Shown in pieces: positions 3,870-44,388 of a stretch of 49,243 nucleotides of DNA. Position 1 is the first letter of the stretch, and each line of letters begins with the position of its first letter. The stretch covers positions 1 through 49,243 of the forward strand of contig JAGWRA010000226.1 in the NCBI GenBank assembly GCA_028876655.1, in the 5' to 3' direction. The stretch is from Acidobacteriota bacterium (GTDB lineage: Bacteria > Acidobacteriota > Vicinamibacteria > Vicinamibacterales > CAVVIG01). Below the pieces are notes generated by a model, which was given only the letters and a program-made list of their open reading frames with translations, searched no databases and had not been told where the DNA came from. The position numbers were made by a program, and so were the translations under genes.

Positions 3870-4754
3870 TCAGGGGACAATCGCCCGCCACCGTCCCTCA
3901 TCCAGGACGAAGCGGGTTTCGGGCGGGCTGTCGCCCGGGTAGGGCTCGGGATTCAGGGGGTCGCCCGGGAGCAGCAGCATCTTCCGGCCGTCGATGTCGT
4001 ACGGCATCGGCTGCATGCGGACGATCGGCTGCCTGGGCAGCCAGTCGAGGATGGCGGCGATCGAGTCGAACCGCGAGAGGTCCTGCAGCGTGCGCCAGGT
4101 CGGCGGCGCCAGCACGATCTCGTCGCGCCGGCAGAGGTCGAGCGCACCGGCCGCGGTCATCCACCGGCTCTCGGTCGTCTCCAGCGAGTCGTGCAGCGGG
4201 ACCTGGCCGTCCGGCATGCACGCGACGAAGAACCGGGTGTCGAACCGCTTGGGCTCGATGACCGGCGTCACCCAGTGCGAGAGCGGCCGGAGCGCGTGCA
4301 GCGCGAGCCGCAGCCCTTCGGCGTCCACGATCGACCGCAGCGAGCGCCCGCCCGAGTGCAACGCGTGGCGGTGCTCGTCGAAGCGCACGCGCGTTGCCGG
4401 ATCGGTCGTGACGATGAACTGGCCCGTGCGGTCGCGGGCGAGCAGGACGCCGGCCTCTTCGAAGAGCTCACGCATCGCCGCGACGTGATACGACACGCCG
4501 ACGTCGGGACGGTTCACCAGATCCGCGAAGTGCGTCCGCGCCATGTCGGCGCCGTCGCACCACTCGTCGGCGTCGGTCGCCCGGTCGGCCTCGTCCACCC
4601 GTCCGCCGGGGAAGACGAACGCGCCGCCGAAGAACGACGTCCCGCGGGTGCGGCGCACCATGAGGATGTCGGGCGGCGTCCGTTCGGGCGCTCCGGGCCG
4701 ATCGCGGAGCAGGACGACGGTGGCGGCGGGACGGGCGGGGGCGGGGTCAGTCAT
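3870..4754 (-). CDS. Nudix hydrolase, NUDT19/RP2p-like with split Nudix box
   Basis: A 294-residue protein. I prefer the start at 4754 (MTDPAP) over the ATG at 4781 because that ATG falls within a 7-bp repeat array. The Nudix signature is present but interrupted. GG at 50-51 begins the box, and the REx(2)EE catalytic part (R95, E96, E99, E100, AG) lies about 44 residues later instead of directly after it. Such a long insertion in the box is characteristic of mammalian NUDT19-type CoA and acyl-CoA diphosphatases and their bacterial relatives. Likely reaction: hydrolysis of a nucleoside diphosphate linked to another group, with CoA derivatives the best guess. Confidence 0.8.
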   Translation of the reverse strand: MTDPAPARPAATVVLLRDRPGAPERTPPDILMVRRTRGTSFFGGAFVFPGGRVDEADRATDADEWCDGADMARTHFADLVNRPDVGVSYHVAAMRELFEEAGVLLARDRTGQFIVTTDPATRVRFDEHRHALHSGGRSLRSIVDAEGLRLALHALRPLSHWVTPVIEPKRFDTRFFVACMPDGQVPLHDSLETTESRWMTAAGALDLCRRDEIVLAPPTWRTLQDLSRFDSIAAILDWLPRQPIVRMQPMPYDIDGRKMLLLPGDPLNPEPYPGDSPPETRFVLDEGRWRAIVP

Positions 4755-4779
4755 GGGCGAGTCACGGACGGAAGACGTC

Positions 4780-4807
4780 ATGAGTTATGAGTCTTGAGTC
4801 ATGAGTG
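4780..4807. repeat. Heptad array, word WTGAGTY
   Basis: Four consecutive 7-bp units of the form ATGAGTT, ATGAGTC, TTGAGTC, ATGAGTG. It is the first of three different heptad arrays in the divergent gap between the Nudix gene and the M61 peptidase gene. Confidence 0.75.
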
Positions 4808-4816
4808 AGGGGCGCC

Positions 4817-4844
4817 AGGCTCCGGGCTGCAGGCTACCGGGCTG
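4817..4844 (-). repeat. Heptad array, word GYAGCCY
   Basis: On the minus strand the units read CAGCCCG, GTAGCCT, GCAGCCC and GGAGCCT. The same word family forms arrays at 6813-6847, 18938-18965 and 20875-20902. Here it follows the GCAAYGR array in the same order and orientation as at 18868-18965. Confidence 0.75.
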
Positions 4845-4852
4845 AAAAGAGA

Positions 4853-4887
4853 GCAATACCCATTGCGCATTGCCCGTTGCTCATTGC
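4853..4887 (-). repeat. 35-bp heptad element, GCAAYGR x4 plus GTATTGY (copy 1)
   Basis: On the minus strand this has five exact heptads: four variants of GCAAYGN and a closing GTATTGC. The same five-unit structure recurs at 18868-18902 and 39592-39626, so it is a true dispersed repeat rather than local slippage. Confidence 0.85.
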
Positions 4888-4915
4888 GACCGCGGGCCAC
4901 GGGCATGGTCGATCT

Positions 4916-4921
4916 TATACT
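4916..4921 (+). promoter_or_regulatory. -10 box of the M61 peptidase gene, possibly leaderless
   Basis: TATACT ends 8 bases before the ATG at 4930. Transcription normally starts about 7 bases after the box, so the mRNA would have almost no leader. No Shine-Dalgarno sequence precedes the start, which agrees. No good -35 is visible. Confidence 0.5.
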
Positions 4922-4929
4922 GAGACCCT

Positions 4930-6801
4930 ATGTCCAGACCCTTTCGCTCCACCCGTGTCGTGTTGTGTGTCGCGCTGCTGCTGGTCGTGGCCGGCGCGGC
5001 GTCGGCGCAGGCGCCGGTCAGCTATCGCCTGACGTTCCCCGCGCCGGAGCATCACTGGATGCAGGTGGAGGCGACCTTCCCCGACGCCGGCCGCACGCCG
5101 CTGCACGTCTACATGAGCCGGACCTCGCCCGGCCGCTACGCGCTGCACGAGTTCGCCAAGAACGTCTACGACGTGCAGGCCTTCGACGGCGCCGGCCAGC
5201 CACTCGCAGCCGTCCACTCGCAGCCGTACGAGTGGGACGTGCAGAGCGGCGATGGGACGGTGAAGGTCAGCTACCGGGTGTACGGCGACAGGGTCGACGG
5301 CACGTACCTGGCCGTTGACACGACGCATGCGCACATCAACATGCCGGCCGCACTGATGTGGGCCGGTGGATTGGACATGCGGCCGATCCGTGTCGAGTTC
5401 GTCCCGCCGGCCGGATCGCACTGGAAGGTCGCGACGCAGCTGCACCCGACCGCGGACCCGTTCGTCTTCACGGCCGGCAACCTGCAGTACCTGATGGACA
5501 GTCCGGCCGAGTTCGGCACCTTCCTGCTGCGGACCTTCACCGAAGGCGGGCGGACGTTCCGGATCGCCTTGCACGAGCAGGGGACGGCCGCCGAAGCCGA
5601 CGCCTTTGCCGCCGACGTCCACAAGATCGTCCGGCAGGAAGGGGCCGTCTACGGCGAGTTCCCCGACTACGAGCCGGGCACCTACACGTTCCTGTCCGAC
5701 TACCTGCCGTGGGCCGACTTCGACGGCATGGAGCACCGGAACAGCACGGTGATGACCTTCCGCGGATCGCTGGGGAATCCGGAGCAGCGGATCGAAATCC
5801 TGAACACCGTCGCCCACGAGTTCTTCCACTGCTGGAACGTCGAGCGGATCCGGCCGGCGGGGCTCGAGCCGTTCAGCTTCCTGCACCTGAACATGGCGAG
5901 CAGCCTGTGGCTGGCCGAGGGCTTCACGAGCTACTACCAGACCGTCTTCATGCAGCGCGCCGGGCTGGCGACGATGGCCGACACGGCACAGGCCTACGAG
6001 CGGGTGGTGAACGCGGTGACGAACGGATCGGGACGTCAGGTCCGGACGGCCGAGCAGATGAGCCAGATGGCGCCGTACATCGACGGCGGCCAGCCGATCG
6101 ACCGGACGAACTGGTCGCGCACGGTCATTTCCTACTACACCTGGGGCGACGCCATCGGGCTGGCGCTCGACCTCTCACTGCGCGAGCGGTCGAACGGCCG
6201 CCTGACGCTCGACGATTTCATGCGGGCGATGTGGCGGAAGTACGGCAAGCCCGGCGGACCGGCCGAAGGGCTGGTCGGCCATCCGTACACGATCGACGAG
6301 GCGCGCGAGACGCTGGGGGAAGTCGCCGGCGACCCGGCGTTCGCCAACGAGTTCTTCCGTCGCTACATCCAGGGGCACGACGTTCCCGACTACCGGACGC
6401 TGCTCTCGGCGGCGGGGTTGATCGTCCGCCCGATCCATCCGGGCCGCGCCTGGATCGGCAACGTCCGCCTCGACTTCTCGGGCGACGGCGCTGACGTCGA
6501 TGCCCTCACGCCGTACGGATCGCCGGTGTACGAGGCGGGCATCGACGAGGACGACACGATCCTGTCGATCGACGGCCGCAAGATGACGTCGGAGCGCGCG
6601 CTGGCGTCTGTGCTCGCCGCGCACAAGCCGGGCGACCGCGTGCCGGTGATGTTCGTCCACCGCGACGGGCAGAAGGTGTCGGCCACGATCGCGCTGGCTG
6701 CCGATCCGCGGCTCGAGATCGTGCCGGTGGAGAAGACGGGCAAGACGCTGACGGCCGCCGAGCAGGCGTTCCGGGAGAGCTGGCTGGGGCCGAAGCACTG
6801 A
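4930..6801 (+). CDS. M61 family (glycyl aminopeptidase-like) metallopeptidase with PDZ domain
   Basis: A 623-residue protein with an N-terminal signal peptide (cleavage near AQ at residue 27), so it acts in the periplasm or outside. The N-terminal half is a beta-sandwich-like M61 region. The zinc site is HEFFH at residues 296-300 (H296, E297, H300), with E330 in WLAEGFTSYY as third ligand; the WNVERIRP that follows is typical of M61. The C-terminal part from about residue 500 has PDZ features (SPVYEAGIDEDDTILSIDG). Length matches bacterial M61 peptidases. It is monocistronic and convergent with the PRPP-synthetase-like gene. Substrate unknown; likely peptide turnover. Confidence 0.93.
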   Translation: MSRPFRSTRVVLCVALLLVVAGAASAQAPVSYRLTFPAPEHHWMQVEATFPDAGRTPLHVYMSRTSPGRYALHEFAKNVYDVQAFDGAGQPLAAVHSQPYEWDVQSGDGTVKVSYRVYGDRVDGTYLAVDTTHAHINMPAALMWAGGLDMRPIRVEFVPPAGSHWKVATQLHPTADPFVFTAGNLQYLMDSPAEFGTFLLRTFTEGGRTFRIALHEQGTAAEADAFAADVHKIVRQEGAVYGEFPDYEPGTYTFLSDYLPWADFDGMEHRNSTVMTFRGSLGNPEQRIEILNTVAHEFFHCWNVERIRPAGLEPFSFLHLNMASSLWLAEGFTSYYQTVFMQRAGLATMADTAQAYERVVNAVTNGSGRQVRTAEQMSQMAPYIDGGQPIDRTNWSRTVISYYTWGDAIGLALDLSLRERSNGRLTLDDFMRAMWRKYGKPGGPAEGLVGHPYTIDEARETLGEVAGDPAFANEFFRRYIQGHDVPDYRTLLSAAGLIVRPIHPGRAWIGNVRLDFSGDGADVDALTPYGSPVYEAGIDEDDTILSIDGRKMTSERALASVLAAHKPGDRVPVMFVHRDGQKVSATIALAADPRLEIVPVEKTGKTLTAAEQAFRESWLGPKH

Positions 6802-39591: not shown

Positions 39592-39626
39592 GCAACGGGC
39601 AATGAGCAATGAGCAACGGGTATTGC
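39592..39626 (+). repeat. 35-bp heptad element, GCAAYGR x4 plus GTATTGY (copy 3)
   Basis: Units: GCAACGG, GCAATGA, GCAATGA, GCAACGG and closing GTATTGC. It has the same structure as the copies at 4853-4887 and 18868-18902. Confidence 0.85.
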
Positions 39627-39658
39627 TCAAAGCCGGGCGCAGGCGATGGTTGCTGCTC

Positions 39659-39720
39659 GTTGGACGTTGGACGTCGGACGTCGGACGATGGGAATGGACG
39701 TTGGACGTCGGACGTCGGAC
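39659..39720. repeat. Heptad array, word GTYGGAC
   Basis: Units GTTGGAC twice, GTCGGAC twice, a disturbed GATGGGA plus ATGGAC, then GTTGGAC and GTCGGAC twice, running up to the aldolase stop at 39735. The two halves are near-identical, suggesting a duplicated block. It lies between convergent genes. Confidence 0.85.
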
Positions 39721-39734
39721 GTGACGACGTTCCC

Positions 39735-40562
39735 CTACCGCCCCGCCGCCCTGCGTCCCAGCACCAGCGCCTCCGGATCGGTGGCCATGATCACGCGGAA
39801 GCCCTGTTCGACGCGCCGGACGATCTCCTGCTGGCCGGCGGTGATGCCGCAGGGGACGCCGGCGTCCTTCGCGGCCGCGAGGACGGTCTGAATCGCCTGC
39901 TCGGTCGCGTCGCGGTCCCACGCGTACGAAACCGACAGGTCGCCGGGCGCGGCGACGACGACGCTCAGGCCGGGCGTCCGGGCGATGGCCGATGCGTGGC
40001 GGACGCCGAGCGGGTTCTCGATGAGCGCCATGCTGACGAGCTCGCCGTCCGGGTCGAGCGGCCAGACGTCGGCCGCCCGCAGGTAGTCCATCAGCGACAG
40101 CCCCCAGAGGCGGCAGGCGGTGAACGGGCCGGCGCCGCGCTGGCCCGCCGGTTCGGCGTCCGGCGTGCCGGGCGCGTGCGGATAGCGCATCGCGCGGACC
40201 AGGCTCAGCGCCTGCTCGGCCGTCTCGATGTGCGGCACGATCACGCCGTGCACGCCCTGATCGAGCACCTGCTTCACCATCCAGTGGTTCATCTCGCGGC
40301 CGTAGGCGGGAATCCGCGCGAGCACGGGATGGTCGGTGCCGGGCCGGCCGCGCCGCAGGATGGCGGCCGGATCGATCGTGAACTGCAGCCAGGTCCGGAG
40401 TTCGGTCACGTCCAGCGGGCTGTGTTCCATGTCGTAGAACACGAAGTCCAGCTGGTCGTTGCGGACGATGCCCGCCGCGCCGTCCGGGCTCCTGTTGTCG
40501 GCGAACAGGCCGAACACCGTCCGGCCCTCGGCGAGCAGGCTGATCATCCGGTTGTGCCGCAT
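39735..40562 (-). CDS. HpcH/HpaI-type class II aldolase/citrate lyase family protein
   Basis: A 275-residue protein whose ATG overlaps the stop of the DedA gene and follows GGAAGGGTGGAG. Family features are DFVFYDMEHSPLD near the N-terminus, MALIENPLGVRHASAI (metal-binding Glu) and VVVAAPGDLSVSY (metal-binding Asp). HpaI enzymes use a divalent metal and pyruvate-type enolates to make or break C-C bonds in 2-keto-3-deoxy acids. It is the last gene of a four-gene operon, whose other members suggest a biosynthetic rather than aromatic-catabolic role. Confidence 0.88.
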   Translation of the reverse strand: MRHNRMISLLAEGRTVFGLFADNRSPDGAAGIVRNDQLDFVFYDMEHSPLDVTELRTWLQFTIDPAAILRRGRPGTDHPVLARIPAYGREMNHWMVKQVLDQGVHGVIVPHIETAEQALSLVRAMRYPHAPGTPDAEPAGQRGAGPFTACRLWGLSLMDYLRAADVWPLDPDGELVSMALIENPLGVRHASAIARTPGLSVVVAAPGDLSVSYAWDRDATEQAIQTVLAAAKDAGVPCGITAGQQEIVRRVEQGFRVIMATDPEALVLGRRAAGR

Positions 40563-41137
40563 CAGGCTCCACCCTTCCTGTTGGAGACGTCCTTCTTCTC
40601 GTCGTGCGCCAGCCACCGGAAGAACACCACGATCAGCAGCGCGGGGACGAGCAGGCCCCAGAAGCCGTGGAGGCCGATCGCCTCGGCGGCGCGCGGCCCC
40701 AGCCAGGTGACGGCGATCATGATCGCCCCGGCCCACGCCAGGGCGCCGATGAAGTTCAGCGTGACGAACCGCAGGGCGGGGACGCCGGCGTAGGCGCAGG
40801 CGGCCGGGATGGCGATCCGCAGGCCCGGCAGGAAGCGGCAGCCGAGCATCAGCCAGTCGCCGTGGGACCTGACGCGGGCCGTCACGGCGTCGCGCCGCTT
40901 CGCGAACCCGCGGAAGCGGTTCATCCAGCGGTTGAGCCGCGTGCGCAGGGCGAAGTAGAAGAACTGGTCGCCGACCGAGCCGCCGGCGGCGCCGCACAGC
41001 CAGACCGCGACCGGGTCGAGGCGGCCGAGCGCCACCAGGACGCTGGCCGTCACGAAGACGATCTCGCCTTCGACCGCGGCGGCGAGGAAGATGAGCAGGT
41101 AGGCGAACCCGCCGGAATGATCGAGATCGAAGGTCAC
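40562..41137 (-). CDS. DedA family (VTT domain) membrane protein
   Basis: A 191-residue protein with four to five hydrophobic segments. DedA features are EGEIVFVTASVLVALG near the N-terminus, GGSVGDQFFYFALR with the conserved Gly and Arg, and CRFLPGLRIAIPAACAYAG. DedA proteins are linked to undecaprenyl-phosphate or phospholipid flipping across the inner membrane. The gene starts 3 bp after the aminotransferase stop. In this operon it could recycle a lipid carrier used by the pathway (inference). Confidence 0.9.
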   Translation of the reverse strand: MTFDLDHSGGFAYLLIFLAAAVEGEIVFVTASVLVALGRLDPVAVWLCGAAGGSVGDQFFYFALRTRLNRWMNRFRGFAKRRDAVTARVRSHGDWLMLGCRFLPGLRIAIPAACAYAGVPALRFVTLNFIGALAWAGAIMIAVTWLGPRAAEAIGLHGFWGLLVPALLIVVFFRWLAHDEKKDVSNRKGGA

Positions 41138-41140
41138 GAA

Positions 41141-42421
41141 TCAGCTGGTGGCGGGCCCGGACGAGCCGGCGCTCGACAGGACCTCGCGGACGACCCCGGC
41201 CACGCGGCGGACCTGCGCGTCGGTCAGATCCGAGTAGACGGGCACCTGCATGGCCTGCTGCGCCCGCTCGGCGCCGGGGGCCGGCTTGCACGCGTCACCG
41301 AAGAGTTCCATTTCCGTGCAGACGTCGACGTGCAGCGTCTCGATGTCGATCCCGCGCCGCACGCAGCGGACCACCAGGCTGTCGCGCGCCGGGCCCTCCG
41401 GGCCGTGGACGCAGTACTGGTAGAAGACGTGCGTCCGATCGGGCGGGGTGGCCGGCACCGTGATGCCGGGCAGGTCGCGCAGCCGCGCGGTGACGAAGGC
41501 GGCGTGGGCCTGCGTGCGGGCGGTCCACGCGTCGAGGTATTTCAGCGCCTCGAGGCCGATGGCGGCCTGGGCGTTCGGGAACCGCTCGATGTACTGCGCC
41601 GGCAGCGGTTGCAGCTCGCGGATGTTCTCCCAGAGGTAGACGTCGGGGTTCGCGCCGAACCAGGACGACAGCCAGAGGATCGGGAACGAGCTGATCGTGA
41701 AGACCCACGGGCGGATGAAGATCCGCTGCAGCTTCCCGATGAAGAAGCGCTTGGTGACGCGCTTCTCGTCGGGCCAGGGCTCGGCGTGCGCCAGGGCGCG
41801 CACCCGGTCCGCCAGGGCCGCGTCGCGCACGAGCGCCATGCCGCCGCCGTAGCAGTTCAGCGGCTTCAGCGTCTGGAAGCTGAAGAAGCCCGCCTCGCCG
41901 AAGGTGCCGACCGGCCGCCCCTTGTACGTCGCGCCGAGGGCGTGGGCGCAGTCCTCGATCACCACCAGGTTGTGGCGCGCCGCGATGGCCATGATGCGAT
42001 CCATGTCGCACGGCAGGCCGTAGAGGTGCGTCGGGACGACGGCGCGGGTCCGCTCGGTGATGACCGCCTCGAGCGCGTCCGGATCGATCGTGAAGGTCGC
42101 CGGATCGACGTCGGCGAAGACGACCTTCAGGCCGCTGACGCGCGCCAGCTCGGGGATCACCCAGAAGGTGAGGGCCGGGACGACGATCTCCGAGCCGGGT
42201 GGCAGGTCGAGGGCCTTCAGGATGTAGTAGAAGGCCATCCGGCCGTACGACGCGGCGACGGCGTGGCCGGCGCTGACGCCGGCGCGGGCGGCGAACGCCG
42301 CCTCGAAGGCCTCGATCTCGGGCCCCTGGATGAGCGTGCCGCGTCGGCGGTGCTCGGCGATGATCTGTTCGGTGTTGGGGAGGACGCGCGCCCCGTACCG
42401 TGAGATGGCGGCCTTCAGCAT
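41141..42421 (-). CDS. DegT/DnrJ/EryC1/StrS-type PLP aminotransferase
   Basis: A 426-residue protein whose start overlaps the radical SAM stop by 7 bp. Motifs: ASYGRMAFYYILKALDL (substrate and phosphate region), EDCAHALGATYKGRPVG with D157, and SFQTLKPLNCYGGGM with K186 as the PLP lysine. Family members transaminate keto-sugars or cyclitols. An unusual hydrophobic insertion around 225-255 (FIRPWVFTISSFPILWLSSW) could dock the enzyme at the membrane or bind a lipid-linked substrate. It is the second gene of the four-gene operon. Confidence 0.9.
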   Translation of the reverse strand: MLKAAISRYGARVLPNTEQIIAEHRRRGTLIQGPEIEAFEAAFAARAGVSAGHAVAASYGRMAFYYILKALDLPPGSEIVVPALTFWVIPELARVSGLKVVFADVDPATFTIDPDALEAVITERTRAVVPTHLYGLPCDMDRIMAIAARHNLVVIEDCAHALGATYKGRPVGTFGEAGFFSFQTLKPLNCYGGGMALVRDAALADRVRALAHAEPWPDEKRVTKRFFIGKLQRIFIRPWVFTISSFPILWLSSWFGANPDVYLWENIRELQPLPAQYIERFPNAQAAIGLEALKYLDAWTARTQAHAAFVTARLRDLPGITVPATPPDRTHVFYQYCVHGPEGPARDSLVVRCVRRGIDIETLHVDVCTEMELFGDACKPAPGAERAQQAMQVPVYSDLTDAQVRRVAGVVREVLSSAGSSGPATS

Positions 42422-43815
42422 GTCACCGGGCGCGACATGTCGACGGTTTCCTGCCGCGCATGCCGATCGAGCACCTTCCGGTCCAGCCGGCCGACCCAGC
42501 GGCGGACGGACGCGTTCTGCACCTTCAGGAGGTTCGCGACGTACGACGGCCGCATGTAGAAGCGGGTGTACGCGGCGCCGAGCAGGAACCGCAGCTCGCG
42601 ATCCGAGAGGTTCGGGTGGCGGAAGGTCGGCGTGAAGCCGTCGAACTTCTGCCAGTCGGTCTCGGAGAGGAGCGGCTGCAGCTGCTTGAACATCGGCGTC
42701 CCGGGATAAGGCGTCAGGATCTTGAACTGCGCGAAGGTCGACCCGAGGTCGACCGCGTAGTCGATCGTCGCGGCGACCGACTGCCAGTCGTCCTGCAGGA
42801 AGCCCAGGACGTAGAACGCGGCGGTGAAGATGCCGCGCTTCCGGCAGTGCTCCATGATCGCCCGCTGGTGCGTCTCGGGGATCGGCCGGCGGCCCGACCG
42901 CTTCAGCGTGGCCGGCGACACCGACTCGACGCCGAAGCTCATCGCCCGGAAGCCGGCTGCGTACAACCGGTCGAGCAGCTCCGGATCCAGCCGGTCGAGC
43001 CGCGTCTCCGCCTCGAAGGTCAGCGACAGGCCGCGCGCCTGGATCGCGTCGCAGAGCTCCAGCATCCGGTCGCGCTGTTCGGTGAACAGCGGGTCGCGGA
43101 AGATGACGTACGGCTGCCGCTGCCGCTCGCACAGCTGCTCGAGCTCGTCGGCGATGTTCGCAATCGAGCGGGCGCGATACCCCGCCAGGATCCGGTGGGG
43201 GCAGTACGTGCAGAACTCGGGGCAGCCGCGGCTCGCCAGCAGCGGGAAGCCGCCGCCGATCGGCCGCGACGACCAGCGCGACGCCCGGCCCGGCCGCCGC
43301 TCGTCACGGATGAGGTCCCAGCGGGGGAACGGCAGCGAGTCGAGGTCGGCAATCGGCTCGCTCGCGACGACGCCCGACAGCACCTCGCCCTGCGCCAGCC
43401 GCTGCACCGCCGATTCCGGCTCGCCGTTGATCAGGAAGTCCGCGTGGTCCCGGAACAGCTCCGGCAGCTTCGACGCAGTGATCCCCACGAAGCCCACGCG
43501 CGCCCCGCGTGCCCGCATCGCGTCCGCCCACGCCGTCTCGTTGCGGTAGTCGACCAGCGACGACAGGACCAGGGCCACGTCGCCCTCGACGACCTCGCCG
43601 CGCGACCAGCGCACCTCGTGCCCCCACTGCGCCAGGATGGCCGCGAGATACGCCATGTGGACGCTCGGGACGTTGTGGTAGTGCTGCTTGAGGAAGCTGA
43701 TCACCCGGGTGACCCGCGAGAACGGCTCGAGCCGCGACCCGTACCCGCCGACCACCGTATCCTTGCTGACCCATCCGCCTGACGACGACCGGACATCCGC
43801 GAGTACTACTCGCAT
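42415..43815 (-). CDS. B12-binding-type radical SAM enzyme
   Basis: A 466-residue protein. The start at 43815 follows GAGG with 7-base spacing. Residues 1-150 resemble a cobalamin-binding Rossmann domain as in class B radical SAM enzymes (HMAYLAAILAQWGHEVRW, VGFVGITASKLPEL), although the classical DxHxxG motif is not obvious. The [4Fe-4S] motif is C198-P-E-F-C202-T-Y-C205 (CxxxCxxC). Next come RDPLFTEQRDRMLELC and GFRAMSFGVESVSPATLKRSGR, typical of this class. It is the first gene of a tight operon with aminotransferase, DedA and aldolase. Likely a methylation or C-C rearrangement step in a pathway of unknown product. Confidence 0.9.
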   Translation of the reverse strand: MRVVLADVRSSSGGWVSKDTVVGGYGSRLEPFSRVTRVISFLKQHYHNVPSVHMAYLAAILAQWGHEVRWSRGEVVEGDVALVLSSLVDYRNETAWADAMRARGARVGFVGITASKLPELFRDHADFLINGEPESAVQRLAQGEVLSGVVASEPIADLDSLPFPRWDLIRDERRPGRASRWSSRPIGGGFPLLASRGCPEFCTYCPHRILAGYRARSIANIADELEQLCERQRQPYVIFRDPLFTEQRDRMLELCDAIQARGLSLTFEAETRLDRLDPELLDRLYAAGFRAMSFGVESVSPATLKRSGRRPIPETHQRAIMEHCRKRGIFTAAFYVLGFLQDDWQSVAATIDYAVDLGSTFAQFKILTPYPGTPMFKQLQPLLSETDWQKFDGFTPTFRHPNLSDRELRFLLGAAYTRFYMRPSYVANLLKVQNASVRRWVGRLDRKVLDRHARQETVDMSRPVTC

Positions 43816-43959: not shown

Positions 43960-44388
43960 TCAGAGCGCCAGGGGAGGTCCGCGGGGGGTGCGGCGTTCGC
44001 TGTACTCGCCGCACTCGGCCGGCGGGCGGTTGGAGGCGGTCAGCAGCGCCGTCGGGACCGGCGGCTCGGCGCCGCACGGCTCCGCCCAGCAGAGCATCGA
44101 CGGGGTCTGGATCGCCTGGTTGCCGCTGTCCGGCTCGAGCCGGACCGGCAGCGAGAATGCGCCGTCGCCCGGCAGCGTGACCCGCACGTGGTGCCGGTAG
44201 TGAAGCCGATGGGCGAAGGAGACGAGGGAATGACCGAAGCCGGACAGGGAGGCCGGCGAGGTGGCCCGCGGCGCCTTCGCCGTCCGGTGGCCGGAGTCGG
44301 CCCGTGCCGGCGTGACGGCGAGGGCCGCCGACAGGATGACGAGAATCACCCAGGGGACGGGAGAGCCGGGCAGTCGCTTGGGTGACAT
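43960..44388 (-). CDS. Hypothetical secreted protein
   Basis: A 142-residue protein starting at 44388. A signal peptide is visible (MSPKRLPGSPVPWVILVILSA, cleavage near PARA). The mature part begins DSGHRTAKAPRATSP, continues with HRLHYRHHVRVTLPGDGAFSLPVRLEPDSG, has three cysteines (LCWAEPC and ECGEY), and ends with RRTPRGPPLAL. No family recognised. The opposite strand has an open frame of similar length; I chose the minus strand because of the signal peptide and the divergent layout. Confidence is moderate. Confidence 0.5.
   Translation of the reverse strand: MSPKRLPGSPVPWVILVILSAALAVTPARADSGHRTAKAPRATSPASLSGFGHSLVSFAHRLHYRHHVRVTLPGDGAFSLPVRLEPDSGNQAIQTPSMLCWAEPCGAEPPVPTALLTASNRPPAECGEYSERRTPRGPPLAL

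Follow-up and report, generated by a model that had tools for sequence, protein, structure and literature searches.

AprD4, the described enzyme closest in structure to the radical SAM protein of the locus analyzed here, is a 1,2-diol dehydratase of the radical SAM type whose partner is the reductase AprD3 (PMC5461906). The undecaprenyl-phosphate flippase UptA carries five residues, E32, Q64, R112, R118 and W146, that are implicated in C55-P binding (PMC11474028). A third relevant kind of system is regulatory. The main texts of PMC12992588 and PMC10987492 describe small exported proteins whose RAPP or RGPP tails stall ribosomes and which precede Sec, TonB, copper and other genes, the motifs being otherwise avoided in proteomes; the arrest mechanism of these motifs is the subject of PMC10951233. 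Neither radical SAM nor DedA proteins are mentioned in the main text of PMC12992588 or PMC10987492, and our search of the open literature found nothing that links radical SAM enzymes with arrest peptides, or that links radical SAM, DegT and DedA proteins with one another.

The locus lies in a stretch of 49,243 nucleotides (the window) from a draft genome of 4.19 Mb, whose relatives with named records are Acidobacteriota, Vicinamibacterales among them. The superfamilies represented are all known; for the gene set, for its restriction to one phylum within the range of our searches, and for its arrest-type leader we found no earlier description.

Organization of the locus

Four minus-strand genes follow one another closely (Table 1). 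The radical SAM (rSAM) and DegT genes overlap by 7 bases (42415-42421), a gap of 3 bases separates DegT from DedA, and DedA overlaps HpaI by a single base (TGATG). This arrangement, re-derived here, matches exactly that given in an earlier sequence-only reading of the same DNA, and ortholog alignments agree with the gene starts. The family calls of that reading also held, each protein exceeding the cut-off of its Pfam domain (PF04055, PF01041, PF09335 and PF03328, respectively). No protein of the set reaches an NCBIfam equivalog cut-off. Upstream of the interval covered by the earlier reading, and missed by it, is a leader ORF with an arrest-type tail; the longest mechanical ORF at this position extends to 44508.

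Table 1. Features of the locus (window coordinates).
Feature	Position	Strand	Description
Leader ORF	43960..44388	minus	142 aa, ATG at 44388; signal peptide MSPKRLPGSPVPWVILVILSAALAVTPARA, tail ERRTPRGPPLAL
RGPP codons CGC GGA CCT CCC in leader	43972..43983	minus	Putative translation-arrest motif, stop three residues on
rSAM (AprD4/BchE/HpnJ-like radical SAM protein)	42415..43815	minus	466 aa; CPEFCTYC cluster motif; N-terminal KDTVVGGYGSR motif
DegT-family PLP aminotransferase	41141..42421	minus	426 aa; predicted PLP lysine K186; hydrophobic insertion ~213-272
DedA/VTT membrane protein	40562..41137	minus	191 aa, GTG start; UptA-type residues E25, Q58, R101, R107, W135
HpcH/HpaI aldolase-family protein	39735..40562	minus	275 aa, ATG start; outside conserved cassette

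The rSAM, DegT and DedA genes are kept together in Acidobacteriota

We are almost certain that rSAM, DegT and DedA constitute a real three-gene unit. Scanning 84,980 species genomes with two 8-residue rSAM peptide patterns, which was the sole test of occurrence outside Acidobacteriota, returned 50 loci, all from that phylum save a few with other or uninformative record titles. rSAM is accompanied by DegT in 46 of these 50 named loci and by both partners in 37, and several of the incomplete loci stop at a contig edge. Of the genomes with a DegT ortholog among 60 relatives, most have rSAM and DedA orthologs adjoining it. Adding the 24 regions around these DegT orthologs to the named loci gives a set of 74, which counts loci rather than independent genomes since some of the 24 regions come from the same genomes as named loci. 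Across 396 genomes of the phylum, rSAM occurs in 11, DegT in 11 and both in 10 (Fisher 5e-18), a patchy distribution. The cassette is so far confined to Acidobacteriota, distant families included. Two records that carry it, L115 and L114, bear the implausible titles Bifidobacterium breve and Cyanobacteria, which look wrong; their whole-genome counterparts (G021 and G050) fall within the window's own family and order.

Gene order has changed without loss of a partner in L092, L097 and L100; the order in L100 is rSAM-DedA-DegT, and in L092 DegT lies on the opposite strand. The protein distance matrices of the cassette enzymes correlate (r 0.91/0.78/0.82), which, with Mantel shuffles that ignore shared ancestry, mainly shows joint inheritance. 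Across lineages, no further enzyme gene is conserved beside the cassette. The earlier view of the locus as an uncharacterised operon is borne out for the rSAM-DegT-DedA unit.

Individual loci depart from this arrangement in other ways. At L114 3718-10645 (L064), rSAM is split after its first ~108 codons by an inserted block with CusA-type RND and TolC genes, and at L115 2034-2213 (L062) it is reduced to ~60 N-terminal residues beside intact DedA and DegT. At L084 11383-14656, DedA is flanked by two DegT copies in one cassette.

HpaI lies outside the conserved unit

The sequence-only reading had placed all four genes in one system and had named as refuting it the case in which they are kept together in no related genome. 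This is what we found: while its expectation of co-occurrence holds for rSAM, DegT and DedA, HpaI stands beside the cassette in none of the 74 related loci, that of a same-genus genome (G001) included, and was rejected as part of the conserved unit on this count. In G001 an FAD-oxidoreductase gene directly follows DedA, and in the window the same gene lies beyond HpaI; thus the HpaI site of the window corresponds to nothing in the sister genome. Short GACGTCC-type repeats lie directly downstream of HpaI (window 39610-39735), where the two genomes differ.

A four-enzyme pathway, in which rSAM, DegT and DedA make a product that the HpaI aldolase extends by a pyruvate unit, would draw on the one-base overlap with DedA and on the intact family motifs of HpaI (DMEH, IENP and APGDLS). 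As a shared function, and with it the earlier proposal of a chain-extended acidic sugar, it is contradicted by the absence of HpaI from all 74 loci, by the position of the next conserved gene directly after DedA in the same-genus genome, and by the nearest HpaI homologs, which share 58% identity, belong to another family of the same order and are unlinked to the cassette. We regard this pathway as very improbable. HpaI scores 68 bits against TIGR02311, below the cut-off of 369, and satisfies the broader PF03328. Given the overlap, it is probably co-transcribed and co-translated with DedA in this genome. HpaI is a lineage-specific addition that may be used here, either a passenger or a private extra step. 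A relative of HpaI in another family (G430; L135:5515-6444) has a signal-peptide-like N-terminal extension.

The rSAM protein resembles AprD4

The rSAM protein belongs to the radical SAM superfamily (PF04055, 55 bits), and the cysteines of its cluster motif (Cx3Cx2C) are invariant in 40 orthologs. Its predicted structure (pLDDT 89) best matches AprD4 (PDB 6fd2; Z 36.7 over 418 residues, 2.8 A), the next match reaching Z 26.6. The immediate product of AprD4 is a keto-sugar. The two proteins share the full-length fold and the FRDPxF, CETRxDRLD, GVES and PYPGT motifs. However, they are only 23% identical, AprD4 has a Cx3Cx3C cluster motif, and the rSAM family has its own invariant N-terminal KDTVxGGYGSR. 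Additionally, rSAM is paired with an aminotransferase, whereas AprD4 is paired with the reductase AprD3. Against the AprD4 model NF033070 the protein scores 99.8 bits, below the cut-off of 500. Sequence models of BchE, AprD4 and HpnJ score the protein almost equally; HpnJ and BchE occupy the same sequence neighbourhood, and rSAM reaches ~94-100 bits against their cut-offs of 578 and 481. An N-terminal alpha/beta domain is predicted, with a fold common to both B12-binding and B12-free enzymes, and Pfam gave no match to a B12-binding domain. C-methylation, which had been suggested for this enzyme, finds no support, the nearest structure being that of a non-methylating diol dehydratase.

This neighbourhood also raises the question of hopanoids, which the cassette might modify as HpnJ does. 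The genome of the window encodes a full hopene cyclase (G000:C269:2418-4289, 769 bits), and cassette-bearing relatives are mostly without one: no match was obtained in 8 of 9 other cassette genomes tested. Moreover, Pyrinomonas K22 (L104) carries the cassette and is listed without these hopanoid genes (PMC5462960). With the cyclase missing from most cassette genomes, we rejected hopanoids as the general substrate and consider this reading scarcely credible.

A hydrophobic insertion distinguishes the aminotransferase

DegT belongs to the DegT/DnrJ/EryC1/StrS family (PF01041, 267 bits) and has the predicted PLP lysine, which is kept in 34 of 35 orthologs. The predicted structure (pLDDT 93) best matches sugar aminotransferases such as TlmJ and perosamine synthase (Z ~46). 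With TlmJ, the GDP-perosamine synthase PerA and ArnB it shares the fold and the conserved K186, D157 and S181. It differs from them in that YGGG replaces the GEGG/GDGG motif, with loss of the acidic residue, in the invariant N189 and Q183, and in a ~60-residue hydrophobic insertion. The hydrophobic insertion noticed in the sequence-only reading is real. Compared with the three best PDB matches, residues 213-272 add helices that fall outside the aligned stretches, and in 35 of 35 orthologs the Wimley-White scale gives segment 236-258 a favourable interfacial score, though a weak one in some.

DedA retains UptA-type residues

DedA belongs to the DedA/VTT family (PF09335, 46 bits). It shares the VTT domain with UptA, whose five C55-P-binding residues match E25, Q58, R101, R107 and W135 by position, although some of these are also common to other DedA proteins. 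The pair R101 and R107, the re-entrant-loop arginines, is invariant in 21 sequences. These residues support the earlier description of DedA as a lipid-carrier type. The protein scores 26.5 bits against the UptA model NF052604, below the cut-off of 250, and unlike UptA it is tied to rSAM and DegT. In some lineages the DedA subtype differs, with 24-35% identity to the window DedA.

A leader with an arrest-type tail usually precedes the cassette

Many loci have a small ORF that stops 45-150 bases short of rSAM, with a tail like SPRSPRGPPxxx. The window leader has an N-terminal signal peptide, as judged by hydrophobicity rather than by a dedicated predictor, and ends in TPRGPPLAL; no other small ORF in the 49 kb window has an R[AGPS]PP tail. 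We scored a leader as present where R[AGPS]PP lay 1-8 residues ahead of the stop and no more than 150 bases from the start of rSAM. Of the 47 cassettes whose upstream sequence is long enough for this measure, 30 have a leader, two more have longer tails after the motif, and 15 have none. Among 462 control genes drawn from these loci, the same measure found a leader before 3, all of them orthologous tonB genes, and 0.45% of random positions have an R[AGPS]PP-tailed ORF. The motif set was fixed after the first matches had been viewed; G, A, P and S at the variable position are all among the RAPP-like motifs given in the main text of PMC10987492. No leader was found before solo or displaced DegT or DedA copies.

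All six arginine codons and all four proline codons occur in the motif across leaders. This free variation indicates selection on the peptide, and a DNA-level motif in the tail was rejected on the same ground. Values of pN/pS from 0.18 to 0.78 show the leaders to be under purifying constraint, which is weakest between the window and L066, and divergent leaders keep an FG-GAP-like domain. The window leader has no Pfam match, and Rfam gave no known RNA element in the leader region.

As in the known arrest leaders SecM, ApdA, ApdP and CruR, the cassette leader is a small exported protein that has RxPP a few residues ahead of its stop codon and lies immediately before the gene that it putatively regulates. 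In contrast to them, the cassette leaders precede rSAM-DegT-DedA, and their divergent members carry an FG-GAP-like domain. We also computed the pairing of the rSAM Shine-Dalgarno sequence with RNA under a ribosome stalled at RxPP, which was 0.50 compared with 0.26 in synonymous recodings (30 related loci, a relatedness that makes the p-value too small); in the window itself no such pairing is predicted (0.00). Across the 30 loci this modeled pairing is the arrangement expected for arrest control and is supporting evidence only. We consider it likely that the leader is an arrest peptide.

Similar tails occur elsewhere in these loci. Just downstream of the cassette, L085 has another leader of FG-GAP type (4584-5246), which ends in an RGPP tail and precedes TolC and CusA-type efflux genes. 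RSPP-tailed ORFs lie directly upstream of a TonB gene at L103:1282-2358, L110:2289-3407 and L112:2271-3347, and would be another probable arrest leader.

A small ORF with a variable body and a conserved tail directly before an rSAM gene could also be a RiPP-like precursor, its C-terminal SPRGPP tail modified by rSAM and the aminotransferase and DedA serving in export or immunity; rSAM does have a distant match to the RiPP enzyme ApyD. We consider this improbable. A tail of RxPP with variable x is the series known for ribosome arrest, as the main texts of PMC12992588 and PMC10987492 present it, and the similar ORFs before the efflux and tonB genes have no adjacent rSAM. Moreover, the leaders have a signal peptide and often an FG-GAP domain, and DegT fits a sugar aminotransferase.

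A proposed pathway

A ketone-making radical step followed by transamination is the simplest logic joining an AprD4-like enzyme and DegT. We propose that rSAM, using a 5'-deoxyadenosyl radical, would convert a hydroxyl or vicinal diol of a sugar or cyclitol to a ketone, and that DegT, held on the membrane through its hydrophobic insertion, would transaminate this ketone. Because DegT has this insertion and a flippase partner, the substrate is probably lipid-linked, such as an undecaprenyl-phosphate sugar or a phosphoinositide-type headgroup. DedA would move the lipid or carrier across the membrane, and the product is probably an amino-bearing membrane lipid or lipid-linked sugar. The leader would act as a nascent-chain sensor, its RGPP-type motif stalling the ribosome when leader export or folding is disturbed and thereby increasing translation of the rSAM gene. 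The entire model, from lipid-linked ketone formation through DegT amination and DedA transport to control by the sensor, is a serious possibility that we advance tentatively, and the chemistry as a whole falls somewhat short of an even prospect. The sequence-only reading is in sum partly supported.

Alternatively, the two enzymes might serve the making of an extracellular glycan, with a nucleotide sugar or a soluble aminocyclitol as the substrate that they modify and DedA merely recycling undecaprenyl phosphate. DegT aligns over ~350 residues with nucleotide-sugar enzymes, and the substrate of AprD4 is a soluble aminocyclitol glycoside. Inositol would be available as well, inositol-phosphate synthase (MIPS) being present in 20 of 20 genomes tested, and for this reason MIPS does not discriminate for or against an inositol link. 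Nevertheless, no glycosyltransferase or nucleotide-sugar gene is conserved beside the cassette, and the conserved hydrophobic insertion of DegT is absent from its aligned PDB relatives; we judge a soluble substrate unlikely.

Implications

On the reading with a lipid-linked substrate, the cassette might represent a phylum-specific pathway that uses radical chemistry to aminate a sugar, cyclitol or lipid headgroup anchored in the membrane. Its products would be a new class of amino-lipids, and it might be the first such cassette whose expression is set by a nascent-chain arrest sensor monitoring export or the state of the envelope. In this full form we hold the proposal to be rather doubtful. 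Acidobacteriota are dominant in many soils, and much of the envelope chemistry of the phylum is unassigned. With its three enzymes in a compact set and no fixed neighbours across its occurrences, the cassette offers a tractable way to find an unknown lipid or glycan. The arrest-type leader, if true, would add lipid or glycan biosynthesis to the Sec, YidC, copper and TonB genes as a target of nascent-chain control.
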